DNA from: Bacteroidota bacterium
GTDB lineage: Bacteria > Bacteroidota > Ignavibacteria > UBA10030 > UBA8401
DNA length: 64,000 nucleotides
NCBI GenBank assembly: GCA_027622375.1
Contig: JAQCAB010000001.1
Coordinates: 51,317 to 115,316, forward strand
Direction of reading: 5' to 3'
Position numbers and translations under genes: made by a program. Position 1 is the stretch's first letter. Each line of letters starts with the position of its first letter. Positions 2,697 to 44,446 of the stretch are shown here, one piece after another. The notes below the pieces were generated by a model. The model did no database searches. It was not told the DNA's origin and saw nothing but the letters and a program-made list of their open reading frames with translations.

Positions 2697-3050
2697 ATGG
2701 AACCATATATACCAATATTTTTGATGTTAGTGATAAGCACCGCTTTAGCAATTATTTTATTAAAGTTGCAACAATCACTCGGTCCAAAAAATCCGAATAA
2801 AGAAAAACTTTCAACATACGAAAGTGGAATGGAACCAATTCGAAGCGCGCACGAACGCTTTTCTATAAAATATTATATGGTCGCAGTCCTTTTTATTTTG
2901 TTTGATATTGAAGTAATATTTTTTTATCCATGGGCTGTAAATTTTAAAATGCTCGGACTTTTTGGATTTGTTGAAATGTTAGTTTTTATCGGAATTTTAT
3001 TTATCGGATATTTTTACGTTTTACACAAAGGGGCATTGAAGTGGGATTAG
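2697..3050 (+). CDS. nuoA: NADH-quinone oxidoreductase subunit A
   Basis: [11 protein letters not shown]...[26 protein letters not shown] is NuoA signature; MEPYIPIFL start preferred to TTG 2676. Confidence 0.95.
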
Positions 3051-3571
3051 AACATTCTTTTGGCGATAGTATCATAACAACAAAAATTGATGCTGCAATA
3101 AATTGGTGCCGTAAAAATTCTATTTGGCCGATGCCGATGGGAATTTCTTGTTGCGCTATAGAGCTAATGGCATCGGCCGCTCCAAGATTTGATATTGCTA
3201 GATTTGGTTCTGAGGTGATGCGGTTTTCTCCACGTCAATGCGATTTATTAGTTGTTGCAGGAACAACAACTTACAAAATGGCTCCCGTTGTCCGAAAAAT
3301 TTATGATCAAATGCCTGATCCAAAATGGGTAATTGCAATGGGTGCTTGTACTTCTTCGGGAGGAATGTACAGAACCTATTCCGTTGTGCAAGGAATTGAC
3401 CAATTTTTACCTGTTGATGTTTATTTGGCTGGCTGCCCTCCAAGACCAGATAATTTATTACAAGCTCTAATGGTGATTCAAGATAAAATTCAAAAAGGGG
3501 AAAGCAAAGGTTCACCGATGACAGTTTCTGATGAAAAAAAATTGTTGGAAATAAATATTCAGGAAAATTAA
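3041..3571 (+). CDS. nuoB: NADH-quinone oxidoreductase subunit B
   Basis: [11 protein letters not shown]...[37 protein letters not shown]...[13 protein letters not shown] start overlapping the nuoA stop. Confidence 0.97.
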
Positions 3572-3574
3572 TTA

Positions 3575-4069
3575 ATGAGCAAAGTAGTTGTTGATGTTTT
3601 AAAAGAGGCATTCCCTTCTTCTATAATAGATGTAATTATTTTTCGTAATGAAACTACAATTATTTTAAAAAAAGATGATATTTTAAAAGTTTGTAAGTTT
3701 TTAAGAGATCATCAAAAATGTCAATTTAATTATTTATCTGATTTATGTGGCGCAGATAAGTTTACTCCTGAAAATAGATTTGAAGTAATTTATAATTTAC
3801 TTTCAATCCCACTTAAACATCGTATCAGATTAAAAATTTTTACTGAGGAATTAAATCCAACGGTCCCCACGGTTTGTAATATTTGGGAATCGGCAAATTG
3901 GTACGAGCGTGAAGCGTATGATATGTATGGAATAATTTTTGATGGGCACCCCGATTTAAGAAGAATGTATATGCCCGAAGATTTTGAATATTTCCCTTTA
4001 AGAAAAAATTTTCCTTTAATGGGTGTCCCAGGTTCTTTACCATTACCGGAAAATAATCCTAAGAATTAA
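3575..4069 (+). CDS. nuoC: NADH-quinone oxidoreductase subunit C
   Basis: ESANWYEREAYDMYGIIFDGHPDLRRMYMPEDFEYFPLRKNFPL typical of NuoC. Confidence 0.95.
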   Translation: MSKVVVDVLKEAFPSSIIDVIIFRNETTIILKKDDILKVCKFLRDHQKCQFNYLSDLCGADKFTPENRFEVIYNLLSIPLKHRIRLKIFTEELNPTVPTVCNIWESANWYEREAYDMYGIIFDGHPDLRRMYMPEDFEYFPLRKNFPLMGVPGSLPLPENNPKN

Positions 4070-4075
4070 ATTAAA

Positions 4076-5341
4076 ATGCCTGCCACTTCAACTTTAGATT
4101 ATCGGAAAATTAGACAAGAAAAAATTATTAAAACTCTTGTTAATAAAGATTTGAGCATTCAATTCGAAGACCATTTAGAAAACGAAATGATTCTTAATAT
4201 GGGACCTCAACATCCGGCAACGCATGGGGTTTTAAGATTACTTTTAAAATTAGATGGTGAATCCGTAATGCAATGTGTTCCTGAGTTGGGATATTTGCAT
4301 CGTGGTTACGAAAAACTTGCCGAGAATTGCTCCTATCATGAATTTATTCCTCATACAGATCGACTTGATTATCTTTCGCCATTAATGAATAACACAGCTT
4401 ATGTTTTGGCTGTAGAAAAATTATTAGGCATTGATGTGCCAAGAAGAACAAAATTTATTCGAACAATTATTTCGGAGCTTGCAAGAATTTCTTCTCATTG
4501 TTTATTTGTTGGCTCGATGGGGATGGATATTGGAGCAGTGACAGTTTTTCTTTGGACATTTCGTGAACGAGAAAAATTATATGATATTTTTGAAAATTTA
4601 ACTGGCGCAAGATTTACAACAAGCTATACTAGAATTGGCGGACTCTCACAAGATTTAAATCCTGAAGTTTTACAAATGATGAAAGATTTTGTTGAACAAT
4701 TTCCAGAAAAATTAAATGATTGCGAAAAATTATTAAACTCAAATCGTATTTTTGTTGAACGTACAGATGGTGTTGGTGCAATTTCTCCAGAAGATGCAAT
4801 TTCAATTGGGATGACTGGACCTAATTTACGAGCGACAGGTATTGAGCATGATATGCGAAGAGTGGAACCATATTTATTGTACAACGAGTTTGATTTTGAT
4901 ATTCCAACTTTTACCGGTGGTGATTGTTTAGCTCGTTACTATGTTCGCATAAATGAGATGAAGCAAAGTATAAAAATTTTACAACAAGCTTTGGAAAAAA
5001 TTCCTGAAGGTCCAATACATGCATTTGAACCTAAAAAAGTTCTTCCTCGCAAAGAAAGAGTTTATACAAAAATGGAAGAATTAATTCAAGATTTTATGTT
5101 AATTAATTATGGAACCGAACCACCAGTTGGTGAAATTTATCATGCAATTGAAGGTTCAAAAGGTGAACTTGGTTTTTATATCCAAAGTAAAGGTGAAGGC
5201 CAACCTTGGAGAATGAAAATTAGATCTCCTTCATTTTGTAACTTACAGAGTTTACCAAAGTTAGTTCAAAATTCAATGATTTCAGATGTTGTTGCAATTA
5301 TTGGAAGTATTGATCCAATTATGGGCGAGGCGGATAAATAA
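4076..5341 (+). CDS. nuoD: NADH-quinone oxidoreductase subunit D
   Basis: NMGPQHPATHGVLRLLLKLDGE...GYLHRGYEKLAE; SPSFCNLQSLPKL...IGSIDPIMGEADK. Confidence 0.97.
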   Translation: MPATSTLDYRKIRQEKIIKTLVNKDLSIQFEDHLENEMILNMGPQHPATHGVLRLLLKLDGESVMQCVPELGYLHRGYEKLAENCSYHEFIPHTDRLDYLSPLMNNTAYVLAVEKLLGIDVPRRTKFIRTIISELARISSHCLFVGSMGMDIGAVTVFLWTFREREKLYDIFENLTGARFTTSYTRIGGLSQDLNPEVLQMMKDFVEQFPEKLNDCEKLLNSNRIFVERTDGVGAISPEDAISIGMTGPNLRATGIEHDMRRVEPYLLYNEFDFDIPTFTGGDCLARYYVRINEMKQSIKILQQALEKIPEGPIHAFEPKKVLPRKERVYTKMEELIQDFMLINYGTEPPVGEIYHAIEGSKGELGFYIQSKGEGQPWRMKIRSPSFCNLQSLPKLVQNSMISDVVAIIGSIDPIMGEADK

Positions 5342-31033: not shown

Positions 31034-33538
31034 ATGTCAAATAAGAATACTGAAAAAATAAAATCACAAGAGAAAATAATCCAAAAAAATAATTTTACAA
31101 ATCATTTAATTCCAATTGTAATAATATTGGGAACAATGTTATTATTTTTTAATGAAGTTATTTTTGATGGTAAAGTTTATATTTCTGGCGATTCAATTGC
31201 GAGTAAAAGTTTTGAAACTGTTGTAAGTGAGGCGCGCGCTGAAGGGATCCAAACACTTTGGAACCCTTATATTTTTTGCGGAATGCCGGGCTTTGCAAGT
31301 ATGACTTTTAGCGGTGATAGAATTTATGACATCAGCGAGTTTTTACATTCCAAAGTTAGAACTTACTTTAGTTTAATTTTAGGCAACTCTCCGCTCGGTG
31401 GTTATATTTATTATTATGTTATTTTTGCAATTGGTGTTTATTTATTTGCATACTTAAAATTAAATCGTAAATCGGTTGCGCTAATTGTTGCGATTGCAAC
31501 TTTATACTCCACATATATAATTATTTGGATTTCAGTTGCGCACATGACAAAAATTGCTGTCTTTGCATTCTTCCCTTTTTTATTAATCGTAATTGAAAAA
31601 CTTCAAAAAAAAATAAATATACTTTGGTGTGGCATTGGTGTAATTGTTGTTCACTTTTTATTAATGCCGGGACACATTCAATTAATATTTTACATTTTGC
31701 TCACGGTTTTTTTCTATTATTTATTTTTTATTGTTCGTGCATTAATATTAAAAGAATCATTTAAAGAACTTTTAAAATCAGGTTTTACATTATTAGCAAT
31801 CGGGCTTTTTGCGTTAGGGATGAGTGGTGATGTATATTTTTCAACGCTTGAATATTCTCCTTATTCAATTCGTGGAGCAGGCCCAACATTAATAGAACAA
31901 AATAATCCTCAAAATGTTTCTCAAGCTACAAGTGGCGGACTTGATTATGATTATGCTACAAATTGGTCTTTTTCACCTGGTGAAATGGGAACATTTTTTA
32001 TTCCCTCTCTTTATGGATTTGGAAATACTGATTACAAAGGGATACTTTCAAACAATCAATCAATTAGACTAAATACATATTTTGGTCCACAGCCATTTAC
32101 TGATGCACCTCAATATATGGGAATTACAATTTTGGCTCTTGCAATTTTTGGAATTTATTATTTCAGAAAAAATCCATTTGTCCAGTTTTCAAGTTTCATT
32201 ATTTTATTTTCATTATTAGTTTCATTTGGAAAAGAATTTTCGCTCATTTACGATTTAATGTTTAATTATTTTCCAATGTTCAACAAATTTAGAATCCCTT
32301 CAATGATTTTAGTTTTAGTCCAGTTTTTTATTCCACTACTTGCTGGTTTTGGATTAATTGGAATTATTGAATCATCAAGCGAAAAAATTAAAAATGCATT
32401 CAAGTATATTTCCGTTGTAAGTGGTGTATTATTTTTAATTGCATTTATTCTGCCTTCTTTATTTGAGTCTATTTATGAAAGCTTTTTCTCACAAACAGAA
32501 ATTAAAAATTCATTAAGCCAAAATTACGGAACACAACCTGAAGTTTTAACCGAGCTATACAATTTTATTTTAAACCAAGTTGTTTTTGATATTAAAGTTG
32601 CAACTATTTTAATTTGCGCTCTTTCAATATCAATTTATTTTTTCATCTTAAAAAAACTTTCGTTTAAAAATTTATCAACAATAATTATAATTTTGGTTTT
32701 AATTGATCTTTGGAGAGTTGATAATAAAATGTCAGAACTTCATTCTAAATATGAAGCGCAATCAACTTTTAATACCCCTGGTTATGTAAATTTTCTTTTG
32801 CAGGATAAAAGTGAGTATCGTGTTTTAGAATTTGTAAATGGTCAACCTCCATACAATAATTCTTTGGCATATTGGAAAATCCAAAGCGCTTATGGATATC
32901 AAGGGGCTAAAATGCGAAACTATCAAGATATAATTGATAACATCGGACTCAACAATCCACTTTTATGGGGATTGATGAATGTAAAATATATTGTAACAGA
33001 TAAACTTGATTCTAGTCAATTATTATTGCCGGTTTATAAATCTCAAGAAAAAAATATTTTGCTTAATCGCTTTTCACTTCCGCGCGCATTTTTTGTGAAC
33101 AGAGTTGAAAAATTAAATTCAATAGATATTTTAAAAAATTTAAAAGCTTCAAATTTTAATCCATTTGAAGTAGCATTTACAAGTGATGATATAAAAAGTA
33201 AAATCGAACCGCCATCAAGTGAGGTGAATGTAAAATATACTTCATTTAAAATGAATGAAATTGAATTGAGTATAAACGCATCTGGAAACAACTTATTATT
33301 TTTAAGCGAAACGTGGTATCCAAAAGGATGGAAGGCGTATTTAGATGAAACTGAAATTCCAATTTATAGATTAAATTATATGTTCCGTGGTGTTGTTGTA
33401 TCAAAAGGAAATCATATTTTAAAAATGAAGTTTGAACCTGAGAGTTATTATTATGGAAAAAATATCAGCTTTATAATAAATTTAATTGCTCTTGGTTCAT
33501 TTTTATTTTTTGGAATTAATTATTACAGAAAAAAATAA
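31034..33538 (+). CDS. YfhO-type multi-spanning membrane protein (putative lipid-linked glycosyltransferase)
   Basis: N-terminal TM, GDSIASKSFETVVSEARAEGIQTLWNPYIFCGMPGFASMTF, many TMs, C-terminal SETWYPKGWKAYLDETEIPIYRLNYMFRGVVVSKGNHILKMKFEPESYYYGKNIS. Confidence 0.88.
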   Translation: MSNKNTEKIKSQEKIIQKNNFTNHLIPIVIILGTMLLFFNEVIFDGKVYISGDSIASKSFETVVSEARAEGIQTLWNPYIFCGMPGFASMTFSGDRIYDISEFLHSKVRTYFSLILGNSPLGGYIYYYVIFAIGVYLFAYLKLNRKSVALIVAIATLYSTYIIIWISVAHMTKIAVFAFFPFLLIVIEKLQKKINILWCGIGVIVVHFLLMPGHIQLIFYILLTVFFYYLFFIVRALILKESFKELLKSGFTLLAIGLFALGMSGDVYFSTLEYSPYSIRGAGPTLIEQNNPQNVSQATSGGLDYDYATNWSFSPGEMGTFFIPSLYGFGNTDYKGILSNNQSIRLNTYFGPQPFTDAPQYMGITILALAIFGIYYFRKNPFVQFSSFIILFSLLVSFGKEFSLIYDLMFNYFPMFNKFRIPSMILVLVQFFIPLLAGFGLIGIIESSSEKIKNAFKYISVVSGVLFLIAFILPSLFESIYESFFSQTEIKNSLSQNYGTQPEVLTELYNFILNQVVFDIKVATILICALSISIYFFILKKLSFKNLSTIIIILVLIDLWRVDNKMSELHSKYEAQSTFNTPGYVNFLLQDKSEYRVLEFVNGQPPYNNSLAYWKIQSAYGYQGAKMRNYQDIIDNIGLNNPLLWGLMNVKYIVTDKLDSSQLLLPVYKSQEKNILLNRFSLPRAFFVNRVEKLNSIDILKNLKASNFNPFEVAFTSDDIKSKIEPPSSEVNVKYTSFKMNEIELSINASGNNLLFLSETWYPKGWKAYLDETEIPIYRLNYMFRGVVVSKGNHILKMKFEPESYYYGKNISFIINLIALGSFLFFGINYYRKK

Positions 33539-33540
33539 TT

Positions 33541-33636
33541 TTGAATAATAAATTTTCATTAGCTTTAATTGGTTGTGGAAATTGGGGGATTTATCATTTA
33601 AAAACTGCTGCTAAATTATTTGGGAAATTAAACTAA
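33541..33636 (+). pseudogene. Truncated 5' remnant of a Gfo/Idh/MocA-family oxidoreductase
   Basis: Own translation from TTG 33541: LNNKFSLALIGCGNWGIYHLKTAAKLFGKLN*; Rossmann GCGNWG motif of Gfo/Idh/MocA N-termini, ends at TAA after 31 codons. Confidence 0.7.
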
Positions 33637-33642
33637 AATTAA

Positions 33643-35154
33643 ATTAATTTAAATAATATCGGAATAGTAATTCGACATAGCTTTAAAACTCTTTCCATTA
33701 CATATTTTGGGATGCTTTTTGGTCTTGTAAATACGTTATGGCTATATCCATTATTATTAACTGAAACAGAAATTGGGCTTGTTAGAACTTTAATTAACGC
33801 TTCCGTTTTATTTACAAGCTTTGCAGCATTAGGCTCAGTACACATTCCTATAAAATTTTTCCCATATTTTAAAGATTTTGAAAACTCTCATAATGGATTT
33901 CTAACTTTTATTTTGTTGTTGGCTTTTGTTGGATATTTATTGTTTTTGGTTTTATTTTTTTTCTTTAGATCATCAATTTCAAATATTTATTTACAAATCG
34001 CTCCTCAACTAATTGAATATTTAAATTATTTACCAATTCTTACTTTGTTCATTTTATTTTTTTCTGTTTTTGAATCATATGCGATTTGCAATCAAGAGTC
34101 AGTTATTGGAAATTTTTTAAAGGAATTTATATTACGATTTTTAATGTTTATAGGGTTAATTCTGATTTTTTTTAAAATTATTTCTTTTTTTGGATTTGTA
34201 AATATTGTTTCAATTTCATATGCAATAATTTTATTTATTCTAATTTTTTATATTTCAAATAAAAATTTTCTTTTCATTAAATCTCCTAAAGCAATTTTTA
34301 AAAATAAAAGATTGAAAGAGATGTTGACTTTTGGTGGTTTTATATTAATGGCCAATGCTTCTGGATCAATAATGATGAATATTGATGGTTTAATGTTAAG
34401 TGCATATGAAGGTTTAAGAAGCACCGGAATTTATACTATCGCATATTTTATTGCAAATATTATTGAAGTTCCAAGAAGATCTCTTTCGCAGGCTGTTATT
34501 CCATTTATATCAACAGCAAATAAAGAAAAAGATTTTGGTAAATTAAATTTAATATATAAGTCATCTTCGATAAATCAACTAATTGTTGGAGGATTAATAT
34601 TTGTTTTAATTTGGTGCAATATTGATAATTTATTTCAACTTATCCCAAATGGAGAAATCTACAAAGAAGGTAAATGGGTAGTTTTTTTACTTGGAATTGG
34701 TAAATTATTTGATCTCGCGACTGGTGTTAATGCTGAAATTGTGGGAACATCAAAATATTATAAATTTGATTTGATTTTTGTTGTATTATTAGGAATTATT
34801 GGCGTAGGAACTAACCTTTATTTTATTCCAATTTATGGGATTAATGGTGCAGCTATTGCGACAGCTTTATCAATTTTTTTAGTAAATACTTTGCGATTTG
34901 CTTTTATTTTTATTTTCTTAAAGCTTCAACCATTTACAAAACATATTTTAACAATTATTTTTATGATTGTAATTACAATTTATATTTCGGGCTCGATTAT
35001 AAAATTAAATAATTCATTTTTGGATATATTTTTTCGATCTTTTTGTTTATTAATTTTATATTTACTTCCATTATTTTTATTAAAAGTATCGACAGAGATA
35101 AATCAAACAATATTTTCAATTTACAATAGATTTATAAAACTAAAATCTGAATGA
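33643..35154 (+). CDS. Polysaccharide biosynthesis flippase (Wzx/MATE-like oligosaccharide exporter)
   Basis: 12-14 TM profile; PRRSLSQAVIPFIS, GATGVNAEIVGTSKYYKFDL-like region. First ATG is 33712, but coherent sequence (NIGIVIRHSFKTLSITYFG) extends in frame to 33643 without ATG/GTG/TTG. Confidence 0.85.
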   Translation: MNLNNIGIVIRHSFKTLSITYFGMLFGLVNTLWLYPLLLTETEIGLVRTLINASVLFTSFAALGSVHIPIKFFPYFKDFENSHNGFLTFILLLAFVGYLLFLVLFFFFRSSISNIYLQIAPQLIEYLNYLPILTLFILFFSVFESYAICNQESVIGNFLKEFILRFLMFIGLILIFFKIISFFGFVNIVSISYAIILFILIFYISNKNFLFIKSPKAIFKNKRLKEMLTFGGFILMANASGSIMMNIDGLMLSAYEGLRSTGIYTIAYFIANIIEVPRRSLSQAVIPFISTANKEKDFGKLNLIYKSSSINQLIVGGLIFVLIWCNIDNLFQLIPNGEIYKEGKWVVFLLGIGKLFDLATGVNAEIVGTSKYYKFDLIFVVLLGIIGVGTNLYFIPIYGINGAAIATALSIFLVNTLRFAFIFIFLKLQPFTKHILTIIFMIVITIYISGSIIKLNNSFLDIFFRSFCLLILYLLPLFLLKVSTEINQTIFSIYNRFIKLKSE

Positions 35155-35235
35155 GTTATAGTTTTATAAAAACACAAATTATTATAGAGCGTTTTTACAA
35201 AATTATTATAACAAAAATAAATTTAAAACTAATTA

Positions 35236-35955
35236 ATGGGATATTGGAAAAGTAAATTACCAAATTTTATTTGGTCTCCATTAGAAGATTTAAGAAGGGA
35301 TTATTTTCCGAATATGCAAAAATCATATTCCGGCGAAGGAGAAGATTTAATTTTAAACAAAATTTTTAATGGAAAACGAAATGGATTTTATATTGACATT
35401 GGATGCTACCATCCAAAGATAAACTCCAATACATATTTTTTTTATAAAAAGGGTTGGAGCGGATTAAATATTGATGCAAACCCAGATAGTATTTTTAAAT
35501 TTAATGATTTTAGAAATAGAGATGTTAATTTAAATTTTGGGATTAGTAACACTGGAGAAACTTTGACTTATTATAAATTTAACGAATCGGCAGTTAATAC
35601 ATTTTCAAAATCGTTATGTGAAGAGAGAAGTAATATCCCGTGGTTGAAGCAAATTGGTGAGGATAAAATAAAAACTCGAAAATTATCGGATATTTTAGAT
35701 GGACAAAATATTAATTGTGAAATTGATTTTATGGACATCGATGTTGAAGGATTAGATTTGGAGGTTTTAAAATCAAATAATTGGGATAAGTACAAACCGA
35801 ATGTAGTATTAGTAGAAGACCAAATGAAAATTGAAAAAAGTTTTGAGGAGTTAGAAACTTTTGCTTATTTATCAAAAATAAATTATCAACTTGTAGCAAA
35901 AACTTTTAGCACATTAATTTTTGTGAGCAAAGATTTTTTACCTAGTATTAAATGA
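35236..35955 (+). CDS. FkbM family methyltransferase
   Basis: SYSGEGEDLILNKIF...GFYIDIGCYHPKINSNTYFFYKKGWSGLNIDANPDS...DFMDIDVEGLDLEVL. Confidence 0.88.
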   Translation: MGYWKSKLPNFIWSPLEDLRRDYFPNMQKSYSGEGEDLILNKIFNGKRNGFYIDIGCYHPKINSNTYFFYKKGWSGLNIDANPDSIFKFNDFRNRDVNLNFGISNTGETLTYYKFNESAVNTFSKSLCEERSNIPWLKQIGEDKIKTRKLSDILDGQNINCEIDFMDIDVEGLDLEVLKSNNWDKYKPNVVLVEDQMKIEKSFEELETFAYLSKINYQLVAKTFSTLIFVSKDFLPSIK

Positions 35956-36602
35956 AATCCATAAAAAGATTAGTTTGGAAATTATTAAATCTGCTTAATC
36001 TTGCTGGTTTAATTGAGTTAACTTTAAGCATAAATTATTTAAAAAGTAGTGGCTGGTTTAAGAGTTATAAATTAAAACAATCAATTGATAGTAATTACAA
36101 GCCAATTCCGTGGTTTTCGTATCCAATAATTTCATTTTTAGAAAATAGGTTAAATAATAAAATTGATGTTTTTGAGTTTGGTTGCGGAAACTCAACTTTG
36201 TGGTTTGCGGAAAAAGTTAAAAGTATAAAGTCAGTTGAACACAATAAAGATTGGTTTGAAAATGTAAAACTAAAATTACCGAAAAATGCAAAACTGGTTT
36301 ACAAGGATTTAGTTTATGGAGAAAAATATTCCAAGGAAGTTTTATCTGGAAAAAATAAATATCATATTATTATAATTGATGGAAGAGATAGAGTTAATTG
36401 TACATTAAATAGCATTAAAGCTCTACAAAAAGATGGCGTAATTATTTTTGATAATTCACAACTCATTGAATACAAAGATGCAATCGATTATTTAATTAAA
36501 AATAAATTCAAACGAATTGATTTTTGGGGTCAGATACCGATTGCTGCGCATGAAAATTGTACTACAATATTTTACAAACCAAATAATTGTTTAAATATTT
36601 AA
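35952..36602 (+). CDS. Class I SAM-dependent methyltransferase-like protein
   Basis: VFEFGCGNSTLWFAEKVKSIKSVEHNKDWFENV...YHIIIIDGRDRVNCTLNSIKALQKDGVIIFDNS; 4-nt overlap with upstream gene. Confidence 0.75.
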   Translation: MKSIKRLVWKLLNLLNLAGLIELTLSINYLKSSGWFKSYKLKQSIDSNYKPIPWFSYPIISFLENRLNNKIDVFEFGCGNSTLWFAEKVKSIKSVEHNKDWFENVKLKLPKNAKLVYKDLVYGEKYSKEVLSGKNKYHIIIIDGRDRVNCTLNSIKALQKDGVIIFDNSQLIEYKDAIDYLIKNKFKRIDFWGQIPIAAHENCTTIFYKPNNCLNI

Positions 36603-36603
36603 A

Positions 36604-37818
36604 ATGAAAATTGTTTTTATTTCTAATTGGTTTTCTGAAAAAATGGGATATAGCGAAAATTTATTTCCGAAAGCTATGGCAAAGCTTGGCCATGAAGTGC
36701 ATTTAATAACATCAACTGCACAGATATATTACAATAATAAAGAGCGCTACAATAAAATATATTTAAATTATTTGGGACCTTCAATTGTTGAAAAAGTTAC
36801 GAAAGTAATCGATGGCTTTACTTTGCACAGATTAGATTTTATTGTAGAAAATAAATTCCCTTTTTTCCCTTTTGCATTAAATGGAATTAAATTAATTGGA
36901 ATCGATGAACTACTTGATTTAGTTAAGCCTGATGTTATTCAATCATTTAATCACGATGACCCGGCAACTCTTCAAGCTGCAAAGTGGGCTTCAAAAAATC
37001 AAACTAAATTTTTTACCGAGTCACATGTGCATGCTTCTGTGCTTAGAAAAAATAACAAAAAAAGTTTATTCGAAGTTTCTAAATCAATTTTAAATTATTT
37101 CAATCCAAAAATCAATTTTATTAACAGAGTTTCAAAATATAGTTTCCCGATTGCGTTAGATGTTGCAGAAATCATGAATTCTCTTTATCACTTCCCTTCT
37201 GATAAATGCATTGTTCAATCTCTCGGAGTCGATATGGAGCTATTTACTCCCTTAAATTCAACTCTTTTAATGGATGAAAGAATTAAACTAAGAAATAAAA
37301 TTGGTTTTTCTGAGGATGAAATTGTTTGTATTTATACCGGACGATTTTCAAAAGATAAATATCCATATTTATTAGCCGAGGCAATTGAGATATTACAAAA
37401 TAATGGTGAAAAGTTTCGAGGATTATTTTTAGGAAATGGGACAACTCAAGAAATTGAAAACATAAAATGTAAAAAAGGAAATATTTTACTTGGCTTTATA
37501 CCTGTAAGAGATTTAGCTAAACATTACCGTGCTTCAGATATCGGAGTTTGGCCACGAGAGGAATCAACAAGTCAGTTAGATGCTGCGGCCTGTGGGTTGC
37601 CTTTAGTTTTGAGTGATAAAATTCATGTAAAAGAAAGAATTGATGGAAATGGATTTTTGTATTCTGAGGGTGATGCACAGAGTTTAGCAGATAATATTTT
37701 AAAATTGAAAGACAATAGTTTAAGAGAAAGTTTTTCTAAAAAAGGAATCCAAAAAGTACAACAAAATTATAGTTGGGACTCAATTGCAAAAAAAAGAATA
37801 GAATATTATAATTTATAG
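36604..37818 (+). CDS. Glycosyltransferase family 4-like
   Basis: MKIVFISNWFSEKMGYSENLFPKAMAKLGHEVHLIT...IYTGRFSKDKYPYLLAEAIEIL...WPREESTSQLDAAACGLPLV. Confidence 0.88.
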   Translation: MKIVFISNWFSEKMGYSENLFPKAMAKLGHEVHLITSTAQIYYNNKERYNKIYLNYLGPSIVEKVTKVIDGFTLHRLDFIVENKFPFFPFALNGIKLIGIDELLDLVKPDVIQSFNHDDPATLQAAKWASKNQTKFFTESHVHASVLRKNNKKSLFEVSKSILNYFNPKINFINRVSKYSFPIALDVAEIMNSLYHFPSDKCIVQSLGVDMELFTPLNSTLLMDERIKLRNKIGFSEDEIVCIYTGRFSKDKYPYLLAEAIEILQNNGEKFRGLFLGNGTTQEIENIKCKKGNILLGFIPVRDLAKHYRASDIGVWPREESTSQLDAAACGLPLVLSDKIHVKERIDGNGFLYSEGDAQSLADNILKLKDNSLRESFSKKGIQKVQQNYSWDSIAKKRIEYYNL

Positions 37819-37821
37819 AAA

Positions 37822-38490
37822 ATGACAAACCTAATTGACAACCCAAAGATAAATGATAATCGTAATTATGATTATACAAATTTTAAAAGTTTTGAACGAA
37901 GAGAATTTGAAATAATTTCAGATTTTGTTAAACCAAATTCAAAAGTTCTCGATCTTGCATGCGGCAATGGATCACTTTTACTTAAATTAAAAAGAGATAA
38001 AAATATTACTGAGTTTGGAATTGATATTTCTAAAAGTGGAATAAATATTTGTAAGCTAAATAATATTAATGCATCTCTCGGAAAGATTGATAATACACTT
38101 CCTTTTGAAAATAATTCTTTTGACTACGCGATTTGTAATGTTACAATTCAAATGGTTATGTATCCTGAAATTCTTTTACGAGAAATGAAAAGAGTTTCTA
38201 AATATCAAATTATTAGTTTTCCAAATTTTGGATTTTATAAAAATAGATTCGAAATGTTTTTTAAGGGTAGATTTCCACAATATTCACTTTTTGGATTTAA
38301 ATGGTACAATACTGGACATATTCACCAATTAAGTATAAAAGATTTTGAAAATTTAGTTTGTGAGATTGGGGACTTGAAAATAATAAAACAAGAATTCATT
38401 TTAACAAATAATTTTGTAAAAAATAATTTAATAAAAACATTCCCAAATTTGTTTGCGTTGCAACCAATTTACTTGTTAGAAAAAAGTTAA
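37822..38490 (+). CDS. Class I SAM-dependent methyltransferase (type 11-like)
   Basis: VLDLACGNGSLLLKLKRDKNITEFGIDIS...LPFENNSFDYAICNVTIQMV. Confidence 0.85.
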   Translation: MTNLIDNPKINDNRNYDYTNFKSFERREFEIISDFVKPNSKVLDLACGNGSLLLKLKRDKNITEFGIDISKSGINICKLNNINASLGKIDNTLPFENNSFDYAICNVTIQMVMYPEILLREMKRVSKYQIISFPNFGFYKNRFEMFFKGRFPQYSLFGFKWYNTGHIHQLSIKDFENLVCEIGDLKIIKQEFILTNNFVKNNLIKTFPNLFALQPIYLLEKS

Positions 38491-39449
38491 TGAAATTGTT
38501 TGATAAAATATTTTCAAGAGATGAATTTAGAATTAATCCTCCAGTTTTGTTGGATATTGGTGCATCATCGAAAATAAATCCCAAGTGGAAGAAAATTGCT
38601 AAATATTCAATTTGTATTGCATTCGATGCTGACGATAGAGATTTTAATTTACCCACAGATAAAAATAATATTTTCAAGAAAATTCATTTATTAAATTCGG
38701 TTGTTACTGTTGGTGATTTAATAGAAACAGATTTTTACTTAACAAAATCACCATATTGTTCAAGTATTCTAAAACCAAATCAAAACGAACTTTCCTCTTG
38801 GTCTTTTTCAGATAAATTTGAAATAGAAAAAGTAGTAAAAATCAAAACCACAAATCTTCAAAATGTTCTTTCAAATTTAAATATAGATAATGTTGATTGG
38901 TTTAAAACTGACTCACAGGGAATTGATTTGCAATTATTTAGAAGCTTGCCAACACAAATTCTACAAAAAGTTATTGTTGCTGAATTTGAGCCTGGAATTA
39001 TAAATGCATATTTGGGAGAAGATAAATTTTATGATATTCTTAAATTTATGGAGGAGAAAAATTTTTTATTAGCGGATGCACGCATAAAAGGATCTCAATT
39101 CCTTTCGAACAAATTATTGAGTGAGATCACTTCAAATACTTCCCATATAAAAGTTTTACAATTTTCTCATAAAATAATGCCCGGTTGGGTTGAGGTTTTA
39201 TTTTTTAATAAATTTTTAAATAATAATTTTTCAATCAGGGAATATTTACTCTGCTGGGTTTTTGCAACTATTCAAAAGCAATATGGCTTTGCATTTCAAG
39301 TAGCAAAAGATGGGAAATCAAAATTTGATGACTCCATTTTTAATGAATTAATTTCTAGCTCAATCAATTCAATTAAGTTAAATATTTTTAACTTTAAATT
39401 TATTGGTGCAATTTTTGATAAAATGTTAAAATCTTTAAAGTTAAAATGA
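38490..39449 (+). CDS. FkbM-like methyltransferase
   Basis: PVLLDIGASSKINPKWKKIAKYSICIAFDADDRD...NVDWFKTDSQGIDLQLFRSL...EFEPGI. Confidence 0.7.
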   Translation: MKLFDKIFSRDEFRINPPVLLDIGASSKINPKWKKIAKYSICIAFDADDRDFNLPTDKNNIFKKIHLLNSVVTVGDLIETDFYLTKSPYCSSILKPNQNELSSWSFSDKFEIEKVVKIKTTNLQNVLSNLNIDNVDWFKTDSQGIDLQLFRSLPTQILQKVIVAEFEPGIINAYLGEDKFYDILKFMEEKNFLLADARIKGSQFLSNKLLSEITSNTSHIKVLQFSHKIMPGWVEVLFFNKFLNNNFSIREYLLCWVFATIQKQYGFAFQVAKDGKSKFDDSIFNELISSSINSIKLNIFNFKFIGAIFDKMLKSLKLK

Positions 39450-40429
39450 AGCGAAATAATTTCTGTACACTTTTCGATTCAAATTATTTAACTCGTGGAT
39501 TGGTTTTATATCATTCTTTAGAAAATGTATGCAATGATTTCCATTTATATATTTTTGCTTTTGATGAGAAATGTTTTTCGATTTTAAATAAATTAAATTT
39601 AAAACATGCAACAATAATTTCATTAAGACAGTTTGAAGATGACAAATTGCTCAAAGTTAAACCAACAAGAACTATTGCCGAATATTGCTGGACCTCGACA
39701 TCTTCTACTATTCTCTATGTTTTAAATAATTTCAAAACCGAAACTTGTACATATTTAGATGCTGATCTATATTTTTATAAATCGCCAGAAATTATTTTTG
39801 ATGAATTTAAAAACTCTTCTATTCTATTAACCGAACATCGTTATTCTAAAAATTATGATAAATCCCGTAAAGCAGGTAAATATTGTGTTCAGTATATTAC
39901 ATTTAAAAATAATGACGATGGATTGACTGCATTAAAATGGTGGCGTGATAAATGTATTGAATGGTGCTTTAACAGAATTGAAGATGGAAAATTTGGCGAC
40001 CAGAAATATTTGGATGATTGGCTTGAAAGATTTAAAGGTGTTCATGTATTACAAAATTTGGGCGGAGGTGTTGCTGCCTGGAATGTTCAACAATATAAAG
40101 TCCAAAATTCACAACTTGAATTAACAATTATTGATTTTAATAAAAATGAATATCCTGTAATATTTTACCATTTTCATTATTTAAGATTCTTAGAAAATAA
40201 TTTAATTGAATTAGGTCGAAGAAAACTTTCAGAAGATGTTCTTAGTTTAATTTATGCTCCTTATATTCGTGAATTGGAAAAAACTAAAAATATAATTTCT
40301 GAAATTGATAATTCTTTTGATTCAAATGGAACAACAAAAAACAGTTTTACATTGAAAACGCCTTTAATTTATTTTTGGAGAAAATTAAGAGGAACTTATA
40401 ATATTTTTCCAACTTCAAAATTTATTTAA
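39446..40429 (+). CDS. Glycosyltransferase (nucleotide-diphospho-sugar transferase fold)
   Basis: CTLFDSNYLTRGLVLYHSL...CTYLDADLYFYKSPEIIFDEF; DxD motif. Confidence 0.75.
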   Translation: MKRNNFCTLFDSNYLTRGLVLYHSLENVCNDFHLYIFAFDEKCFSILNKLNLKHATIISLRQFEDDKLLKVKPTRTIAEYCWTSTSSTILYVLNNFKTETCTYLDADLYFYKSPEIIFDEFKNSSILLTEHRYSKNYDKSRKAGKYCVQYITFKNNDDGLTALKWWRDKCIEWCFNRIEDGKFGDQKYLDDWLERFKGVHVLQNLGGGVAAWNVQQYKVQNSQLELTIIDFNKNEYPVIFYHFHYLRFLENNLIELGRRKLSEDVLSLIYAPYIRELEKTKNIISEIDNSFDSNGTTKNSFTLKTPLIYFWRKLRGTYNIFPTSKFI

Positions 40430-40797
40430 TGGCAAAATTAATTATACTTTCAACTTTTAGCGATCAACGTGGCAATTTAACTGTAATTGAAAAACAATTA
40501 CCATTCCCAATCAAACGAGTATTTTATATTTATGGAGTTGACAATTCAGTTCGTGGTGGACATCGTCATTACAAAACAATTCAAGCAGCTGTTTGCATTC
40601 ATGGATCTTGCAGAGTAAATAATTTTGATGGAAAAAATAAAGAATCATTTTTACTTGACAACCCAAATAAATGTTTGATTTTAGAAACTAGCGACTGGCA
40701 CACGATGAGTAATTTTTCGAAAGAGGCTGTTTTACTTGTTTTTGCTTCAGAACTATTTGATCCAAAAGATTATATTTTTGAACCATATGATGATTGA
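40429..40797 (+). CDS. FdtA/QdtA-like cupin sugar 3,4-ketoisomerase
   Basis: [56 protein letters not shown]...WHTMSNFS. Confidence 0.85.
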
Positions 40798-41872
40798 ATA
40801 CGAAAATTTACATTCTACAAATTCTCCTTTTTTTAAAGAGTTTTCAGAATCCTTTGAACAAGCTTTAAATTCAGGTTGGTTTATTTTGGGAGAAGGTGTT
40901 CAAAAATTTGAATCTGAATTCTCAAAATTTTTAGGAAGTAAATTTACAATTGGTGTAAACTCAGGATTAGACGCATTAACATTTTCATTAAAAGCTTTAA
41001 ATTTGCCTCATAATTCTGAAGTAATAGTTCCATCAAATACTTATATCGCAACAATTTTATCAATCCTGCAATGCCATTTGATTCCAGTTTTAGTTGAACC
41101 AAATATTTCTACATACAATATTGATCCAGATAAAATTGAGGAAAAAATAACCTCTAACACAAAAGCAATTATTGTTGTTCATTTATATGGTAAATCTTGT
41201 GATATGGATAAAATTGTAAATATTTCAAATAAATATAATTTACCAATTATTGAAGATTGCGCTCAATCGCATGGAGCAAAATTCAAGAAAAAATTGACAG
41301 GTACTTTTGGGACTGGAGCATTTAGTTTTTATCCAACTAAAAATTTAGGTGCTCTCGGTGATGGTGGTGCAGTTGTAACCGATAATGAAATATTTGCATC
41401 TGCAATTAAAAGATTGCGTAATTATGGATCAGATAAAAAATATTATAATGAAGTAATTGGATATAATTCTCGCTTAGATGATATTCAAGCTCGTTTCTTA
41501 TCAATTAAATTAAAATATCTTGATAAAATTACAAGTCACAAACGTAAACTTGCAAAACTATATCATGAAAATTTAAAAAGTGATTTTATTAAACCAATTA
41601 TGCACGAAGATTATTTTGATGTATTTCATATTTATAATATTCGTCATCCTAAAAGAGATCAATTAAAAGAGTTTTTATTAAAAAAAGAAATTAAAACCGA
41701 AATCCATTACCCCGTTTCGCCTCATAAGCAAAATGCCCTAAAATATCTTTTTGGATCTCAAAATTTTCCAATCTCAACTGAAATTCATAATACAACTTTA
41801 AGTTTACCAATTTCATTCGCTCATACCGAAGATGAAATTTATAAAGTTACCGAAACCTTAAATTCTTTTTAA
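40790..41872 (+). CDS. DegT/DnrJ/EryC1/StrS aminotransferase (FdtB/QdtB-like)
   Basis: [82 protein letters not shown] 40790 preferred to 40736. Confidence 0.9.
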
Positions 41873-41879
41873 GAATTTA
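41859..41879. terminator. AT-rich hairpin containing both convergent stop codons
   Basis: AAATTCTT (41860-41867) TTT AAGAATTT (41871-41878); stops of the + aminotransferase (41870-41872) and - glycosyltransferase (41869-41871) share TTAA. Confidence 0.35.
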
Positions 41880-43119
41880 GAATTTTACTCAACTTTTTTG
41901 TCACATTTAATCTTGAGTATTTTTTTATTTCTTGTAAATTTGGTTTTGACTTTTTAACAATTTTAAAAATATCTTTTTTTGAATAGTTGTACGAAAATAT
42001 TTTTCCACAATTTGCAGATTTTATCATATTCCCCACTTCAATATTATTATCGCCAAAAGCAATAATGGTTTTTCCGGCTCGCAAATATTCATATAATTTA
42101 CCCGGTACATGTCTTGGCTCGGATGCACAAACCAGTAAATAATCTGCATTTTGCATTTCGCTATGTATTTGATTAAATGGCAAAAACCCAATGTATTCAG
42201 TACAATTTGTTAATCCCTCGTTTTCAATTGATTTTTTTATTTCTGGCGCAACTGTTCCAATAAAACGTAGCCTTAAATCATTTCCTTTTTTTCTTTCAAG
42301 AGCAATTGCTTTCCAAAAATATTTTGGATTTTGATAGTCAAATATATTCCCAGCGTGTAAAATAATTGAATACTTTTTCTTTTTTAATTTTATTTTTTTA
42401 AAATCTTCTTCATTATATCCCCATGGTAAAACTTCAGTTTTATTTTTCAAAAATTTATATTTTTTATGATATTCTGTTTCAGTGGTTTTTGTTACAAAAA
42501 TCGACTTTGTACTTTCATCTAATATTTTTTCTTCCAGGTAATTATCAATTTTTAAAGTTGGTTTTGATCTTTTAAAATTTTTGTAATATACAATATCAAC
42601 CCAAGGATCAATCAAAACAGGATAATGTGGAATATTAAATTTATTTGTAACAAAATTACCTATTAGATGCGTGCTATGCGGTGGACCAATTGTTACAACT
42701 GCATCAATTTTATTTTTTTTTAGATATTTTGAAATCATTTTTGTAGCAGAAAAATACCATCCAACTCTTGCATCGGGAACAAATAAATTCATTCTTATCC
42801 AAATTGATAATTTATGCCGCAATGATTTATTCTCAAGAGAAATTGCCTCGGAAGCTGAAAGCGCATCATCTTTATTTTTTCCAATAAATTTTTTATAAAA
42901 ATTAAAAGGATCATTTGCTTTTGATTTTAATTCAATTAAATTTTTTGGAATTTCTTTTAACAAACTTAAATCTTTTTCTGAAAAATTATCTTCATCAACT
43001 GTTGCAACTATCGGCGCCCAATCAAATTTTGGAAGATGTTTTACAATTGCAAGTGGCCAATGCACAGATGCTTTTCCCGATGGTGGCCAAAAATATGTAA
43101 CTATCAAAACTTTCTTCAT
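41869..43119 (-). CDS. Glycosyltransferase (GT4-like)
   Basis: [32 protein letters not shown]...[17 protein letters not shown]...[20 protein letters not shown]...[25 protein letters not shown]. Confidence 0.85.
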
Positions 43120-43183
43120 CTTGTTAATATCGACAATTCTTATTATTTAGTATATGATAATATAAAAAAATTCTCAGCAATTT

Positions 43184-44446
43184 ATGGACAAATTCTTAAT
43201 TCGTGGCGGCAAAAAATTAAAAGGAGAGATTAAAATAAGTGGCGCAAAAAATGCATCACTTGCTTTAATGCCCGCTACTTTACTTGCAAGCGGAAAATAC
43301 GAACTTTACAATACTCCAAATTTAAAAGATGTAAATACGATGATAAAATTGCTTTCATCAATGGGAGTAACTTTTGAAAGAAATAATACAACTTTAAGTG
43401 TAAATACATTTCGAGTAAACAAATTTGAAGCGCCATATGAACATGTTAAAAAAATGAGAGCGTCAATTTATGTTTTGGGTCCACTTATTTCGAGATATGG
43501 AAAAGCAAAAGTTTCTTTACCAGGTGGATGTGCATGGGGGCCACGTCCAGTAAATCTACATATTGAAGCTATTAAAAAATTGGGAGCAAAAATTGAAATT
43601 GATCGTGGTTACATTATTGCAAAAGCAAAAAAATTAAAAGGCGCTAAAATAGTTTTTGATATCCAAAGTGTTGGCGCAACTGGAAATACTTTAATGGCTG
43701 CTGTTCTTGCAAAAGGATCAACGAAAATTGAAAACGCTGCTACTGAACCCGAAATTACAAATTTGATTGAAATGCTGATTTCGATGGGTGCAAAAATAAA
43801 TGGAATTGGTACAACCATTTTAGAAATTGAAGGTGTTGAGGAACTTCATCCAACTTCTATAAAAACAATTCCTGATAGAATTGAGGCAGGAACAATGTTA
43901 ATTGCAGGCGCAATGTGTGGTGGTAAAATTACAATTACAAATTGTGAACCTAAACATATTACTTCAGTACTTCTAAAACTTAAAGAAGCGGGAGCAAAAA
44001 TAAAAATAAGTGGAAGTTCAGTTACAATTTCTGCTCCAAAAATAATTAAGCCTGTTGATGTTACAACTGAAGTTTATCCCGGCTTTCCGACTGATATGCA
44101 AGCTCAATGGATAAGTTTAATGAGTTTGGCAAAAGGAAATTCAAAAATTATTGATACAATTTATTATGATAGATTTAGCCATGTGCCAGAATTACAGCGG
44201 CTTGGGGCAAATATTAATTTGATAGAAAATATTGCAAGTGTTACAGGATCAAAAAAATTAACAAGCGCAAAAGTAATGTCAACTGATTTAAGAGCATCAG
44301 CTGCATTGATACTCGCTGCATTAGCAGCTAAAGGTGTAACTGAAGTTTTTCGCATTTATCATTTAGATAGAGGATATGAGGAAATAGAAAAAAAATTACG
44401 ATCTGCAGGAGCAGATATATCGCGTGTTGCGAGTGAAGAATATTAA
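43184..44446 (+). CDS. murA: UDP-N-acetylglucosamine 1-carboxyvinyltransferase
   Basis: IRGGKKLKGEIKISGAKNASLALMPATLLASG, SLPGGCAWGPRPVNLHI, YPGFPTDMQAQW, FSHVPELQRLGA, DLRASAALILAALAAKG. Confidence 0.96.
   Translation: MDKFLIRGGKKLKGEIKISGAKNASLALMPATLLASGKYELYNTPNLKDVNTMIKLLSSMGVTFERNNTTLSVNTFRVNKFEAPYEHVKKMRASIYVLGPLISRYGKAKVSLPGGCAWGPRPVNLHIEAIKKLGAKIEIDRGYIIAKAKKLKGAKIVFDIQSVGATGNTLMAAVLAKGSTKIENAATEPEITNLIEMLISMGAKINGIGTTILEIEGVEELHPTSIKTIPDRIEAGTMLIAGAMCGGKITITNCEPKHITSVLLKLKEAGAKIKISGSSVTISAPKIIKPVDVTTEVYPGFPTDMQAQWISLMSLAKGNSKIIDTIYYDRFSHVPELQRLGANINLIENIASVTGSKKLTSAKVMSTDLRASAALILAALAAKGVTEVFRIYHLDRGYEEIEKKLRSAGADISRVASEEY

Follow-up and report, generated by a model that had tools for sequence, protein, structure and literature searches.

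A stump of a Gfo/Idh/MocA oxidoreductase gene beside yfhO as a probable recombination scar in a surface-glycan locus of an Ignavibacteria-type genome

Results and Discussion

A short reading frame next to yfhO

The window analysed in this work is a 64,000-nucleotide stretch of DNA, in which a short reading frame resembling the beginning of a sugar dehydrogenase lies between a yfhO-like gene and a polysaccharide flippase gene. This raises the question whether the frame is left over from a longer gene, serves a purpose of its own, or arose in assembly. We consider it very probable that the sequence at 33541-33624 represents the 5' end of a Wbp/Wlb-type Gfo/Idh/MocA oxidoreductase gene, left as a stump by illegitimate recombination that joined it to the flippase of another lineage. 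In the following, G000 denotes the window genome, G001 is the sole genome of the same genus that was compared, and G007 and G014 represent another genus. Neither G000 nor G001 yielded an SSU rRNA gene. The locus is composed of the following features:

31034-33538, plus strand: YfhO-family membrane protein, conserved left flank (PF09586, E 3.3e-9; 69% identical to G001)
33541-33624, plus strand: remnant, codons 1-28 (TTG start) of a Gfo/Idh/MocA oxidoreductase gene, by similarity to G001 C4:2711-3694
33625-33657, plus strand: junction spacer of 33 bp with 3% GC (one G or C in 33 bases) and in-frame TAA at 33634 and 33640
33658-35154, plus strand: Wzx/MATE-type polysaccharide flippase, 498 codons (PF01943, PF01554; start-context scores)
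35236-37818, plus strand: rest of the variable cassette, encoding an FkbM methyltransferase, a second methyltransferase and a group-1 glycosyltransferase (domain matches)
37822-39449, plus strand: MetW-like and FkbM-like genes, partly diverged (57% and 50% identical to G001 counterparts)
39446-44446, no strand assigned to the block: conserved right flank with glycosyltransferase, QdtA-like, DegT, glycosyltransferase (minus strand) and murA genes (71-86%, collinear with G001 C2)

Re-translation of 33541-33642 reproduced exactly the peptide given in the preliminary description, LNNKFSLALIGCGNWGIYHLKTAAKLFGKLN, followed by a stop, Asn and another stop. Its TTG codon (33541) is located 2 bp past the yfhO stop, and the G001 oxidoreductase shows the same 2-bp spacing after yfhO, but starts with GTG. 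Of the 31 codons originally ascribed to the enzyme, codons 1-28 are clearly derived from it, whereas the last residues and the stops represent junction sequence, and the frame ends with TAA at 33634-33636 rather than at 33642. The GxGxxG dinucleotide-binding motif of the N-terminal Rossmann fold is retained in the stump as GCGNWG. The C-terminal alpha/beta substrate domain is absent from the window, where homology ends at 33624, and is present in G001 (PF22725). The stump is a pseudogene fragment and not a functional member of the Gfo/Idh/MocA family.

A comparison with Pfam had been proposed as a check, and hmmscan of the bare 31-residue peptide gave no match even at an E-value of 10. This null result was set aside as a refutation, since the peptide is too short to be scored against PF01408. 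A phmmer search of the PDB with the same peptide returned only 3c1a, a Gfo/Idh/MocA-type oxidoreductase (E 0.1); the intact G001 enzyme likewise has its best PDB match in this protein (7e-23). Thus, 3c1a is the best solved structure for both the stump and its intact orthologue, yet it is distant and itself only a putative oxidoreductase. The intact orthologue (327 aa) matches PF01408 (5.4e-23) and PF22725 (1.8e-13), and its NCBIfam scores are all below the curated cut-offs. Judged from family and genomic context, it probably performs a UDP-sugar 3-dehydrogenase step; that its function is assigned on these two grounds only counts against our explanation.

Intact counterparts in related genomes

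A search of 98 genomes of the order with the 31-residue peptide identified the G001 oxidoreductase directly after yfhO (E 5.8e-12) and four weaker matches in G019, G096, G014 and G007. The stump shares 76% amino acid identity over 29 residues with the G001 protein and occupies the same position after yfhO, a gene present in 40 of the 41 genomes searched. The proposal of a truncated oxidoreductase is borne out by intact syntenic orthologues directly after yfhO in G001, G007 and G014. G001 contig C4 carries the end of a GH92 gene, yfhO, the oxidoreductase (2711-3694), an acetyltransferase (3687-4277) and the start of another gene before the contig end. In G007, the order is yfhO, oxidoreductase, acetyltransferase and WbpE-like aminotransferase, and G014 has yfhO, oxidoreductase and acetyltransferase with an aminotransferase copy (C127:5521-6678) directly after the latter, whereas in G019 a WbpA-like gene precedes the oxidoreductase and the acetyltransferase follows it. 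The acetyltransferase adjoining the oxidoreductase in G001, G007 and G014 is of the WbpD/WlbB type; the G001 protein has its best PDB match in 3mqg (2.4e-62), which we take to be WlbB.

The slot after yfhO in L084 (1262-2879) contains a different Gfo/Idh/MocA protein (GVAGYIAPRH type, WbpB-like) together with an acetyltransferase, apparently a non-orthologous exchange of the oxidoreductase. With such a protein in the same slot, the G001 oxidoreductase is not claimed to be a strict WbpB orthologue; presumably, the window enzyme belongs to a Gfo/Idh/MocA subgroup other than the GYIAPRH-type WbpB of Porphyromonas gingivalis HG66.

No short frame of this kind, conserved as an independent small gene, was found in the relatives: across the 98 genomes, all other matches lie in frames of 325-419 aa, compared to 38 aa in the window. 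Since the stump occupies the slot of a whole gene in the relatives, the short form is derived. It is unlikely that the stump has been kept as a short leader ORF coupling yfhO translation to that of the flippase through termination and re-initiation. Such a role would fit the stops placed 18-24 nt before the flippase start, the good start context at both TTG 33541 and ATC 33658, and the conservation of its codons with synonymous changes exceeding nonsynonymous ones (14 identical, 8 synonymous and 5 nonsynonymous among codons 2-28 compared to G001). However, the history of the intact gene accounts for the excess of synonymous changes, good scores can result from an AT-rich context alone, and the short form occurs in no relative. 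Under our preferred reading as a stump, these few codons suggest that selection probably acted on the gene over most of its existence and that the cut is probably recent relative to the split of the genus.

Breakpoint and replaced cassette

Ungapped DNA identity to the G001 gene amounts to 66/84 over 33541-33624 and then drops to 3/12 and 2/12, so the left breakpoint is sharp, at 33624. Alignment of the spacer to G001 on either side did not exceed shuffled sequences (79/300 and 183/300 reached the observed score). As the KLN tail and its stop are junction sequence, the gene was cut and not interrupted by a point nonsense mutation.

The earlier suggestion of a replacement scar beside conserved yfhO gained support from tree discordance and from collinear flanks around a non-matching cassette. 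The window flippase is ~50% identical to the L081 and G006 flippases and 38% to that of G001, whereas the yfhO products of G000 and G001 share 69% identity. The yfhO tree recovers two pairs, G000 plus G001 and G007 plus G014 (100/100 each). In the flippase tree, by contrast, G000 groups with G006, G014 and L081-L084 (100/99), apart from a second group made up of G001, G007 and L087 (100/99). This disagreement indicates that, in two genera, congeneric genomes carry different flippase types. The left flank from GH92 to yfhO is collinear with G001, and from 39446 through 47996 identity to G001 is back at 66-86%, again collinear, which delimits the differing cassette to ~33625-37820. Base composition gave no sign of transfer, with a cassette GC content of 24-30%, like that of the flanks.

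These data bear on a narrower version of our explanation, in which a simple internal deletion occurred in an ancestor already carrying this flippase and no cassette was replaced in the same event. A single deletion could account for the remnant and the flippase lying 117 nt apart on one strand and in one frame, and G006 has a related flippase two genes past yfhO. On the other hand, counterparts of the three genes at 35236-37818 are missing from the G001 contigs compared, and a deletion by itself would thus not account for the difference between the two genomes. A search for direct repeats that might have triggered the event yielded no likely candidate; one 21-nt pair (86% identity, 3.1 kb apart, at 33612 and 36764) was judged to be a chance occurrence in AT-rich DNA. 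Accordingly, we regard a simple deletion as possible but not the favoured course.

The broader explanation, which we prefer, starts from an ancestral order of yfhO, oxidoreductase and WbpD/WlbB-like N-acetyltransferase, as in the relatives. Illegitimate recombination, in the form of either cassette replacement or deletion after flippase exchange, would have removed the remaining oxidoreductase sequence and the acetyltransferase, and the stump would have been joined via the 33-bp AT spacer to the flippase of another lineage. This flippase may be translated from the non-AUG codon at 33658, perhaps aided by ribosomes ending on the stump. The G001 contigs break exactly at this locus, and the ancestral order from acetyltransferase to flippase is not directly visible there.

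The window comes from a single metagenome-type assembly in which a chimeric join is possible, and this too counts against our explanation. If reads of two strains or species had been joined at the AT-rich spacer during assembly or binning, the truncation would be only apparent; the composition of the junction, the splitting of G001 into contigs at the same locus and the lack of an ATG in the window flippase are all compatible with such an error. However, the junction is internal to a 184-kb contig, both flanks and the base composition agree, and the estimated contamination is 0.42. Moreover, the flippase type also differs between G007 and G014, which belong to one genus, indicating that exchange is natural here. 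We therefore find a chimera unlikely, although misassembly is the main doubt about our reading.

Our finding is an ordinary recombination scar reflecting turnover of a glycan locus, and it does not change the general picture. It provides a clean snapshot of the rebuilding of a surface-glycan locus in a little-studied group, in which the stump locates the left breakpoint with a precision of a few bases. The Salmonella O-antigen clusters of groups B1 and D1 contain wzy remnants, which are truncated genes (PMC3715488). The likeness lies in a truncated gene persisting in a polysaccharide locus where adjacent genes or functions have been exchanged. In Salmonella, the remnant derives from a polymerase gene; here, in an Ignavibacteria-type genome, it derives from an oxidoreductase gene, and the acetyltransferase has been lost too.

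Wbp-type pathway and T9SS

Elsewhere in the G000 assembly, no orthologue was found for either the oxidoreductase (best match 29% identity) or the acetyltransferase (best E 1.5e-4). In contrast, a wbpA-like dehydrogenase gene is kept in G000 (C17), encoding a protein 69% identical to that of G019 and having the same neighbours as in G001. A wbpE-like aminotransferase gene is also kept (C46:137712-138869; L102:7707-8876), with a product 68% identical to that of G007; this protein matches the WbpE chains 3nyu/3nu7 at ~3e-72, and other aminotransferases such as QdtB score higher. The wbpE-like gene lies away from the glycan cluster, beside a gene for a T9SS-tailed protein, and this order is kept in G001 C33. 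In G000, it is left without its oxidoreductase and acetyltransferase partners.

With both orthologues not found while the wbpA- and wbpE-like genes remain, the Wbp-type pathway looks severed, and gene content suggests that two steps on the way to a diacetamido-uronate are likely missing in G000. A bacterium that retains T9SS is thereby predicted to have lost such a sugar: G000 encodes a T9SS sortase of full length (957 bits, against a cut-off of 420) and has some 20 further cargo-tail or partial matches, and two window genes carry T9SS tails. In P. gingivalis, the Wbp pathway makes the sugar which links T9SS cargo to the surface (PMC7468200). Strain HG66 of this species has a natural point nonsense mutation at codon 240 of wbpB, which abolishes A-LPS (PMC4031482). 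Thus, a Wbp-type oxidoreductase gene is broken in a T9SS-bearing bacterium in both cases. HG66 differs in having one nonsense codon, whereas here all but 28 codons as well as the acetyltransferase gene are gone.

Start codon of the flippase

In 10 of the 12 fetched homologues of the flippase, the aligned first codon is ATG (MGIVxRQS type); one has TTG, and in the twelfth the alignment begins at a later residue. At this position (33658), the window flippase carries ATC. ORF tools place the start at the first ATG (33712), dropping 18 residues, and automatic start calling would thus truncate this neighbour of the stump. Judging by the helix placement usual in this family, part of the first membrane helix would presumably be lost as well. 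A score for start context, derived from 42 genes of the window (training mean 2.6, s.d. 2.4; random positions average -2.8), gave 1.93 for ATC 33658 and -6.0 for ATG 33712. The called start at ATG 33712 is probably wrong, leaving a rare non-AUG start, a newly broken gene or an assembly error at base 33660. In prokaryotes, AUC starts are used at a low and variable frequency (PMC9845219).

As a more speculative and rather improbable combination, the flippase AUG might have been lost in the recombination, with translation from AUC 33658 (or AUU 33643) by re-initiation after the stump; in addition, a T9SS-bearing host with an intact sortase and many cargo proteins, and without two Wbp steps, would have to anchor its cargo through another sugar or release it.

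The G006 flippase (L042 reverse complement, ~4870-4935) shows a frameshifting loss of ~20 nt between MGIVIRQSF and LGFINTLW. This lesion, in an assembly with undetermined stretches, lies within the first 20 codons and may reflect misassembly. Together with the window flippase, it makes two flippases of this type in which the N-terminus is disrupted.
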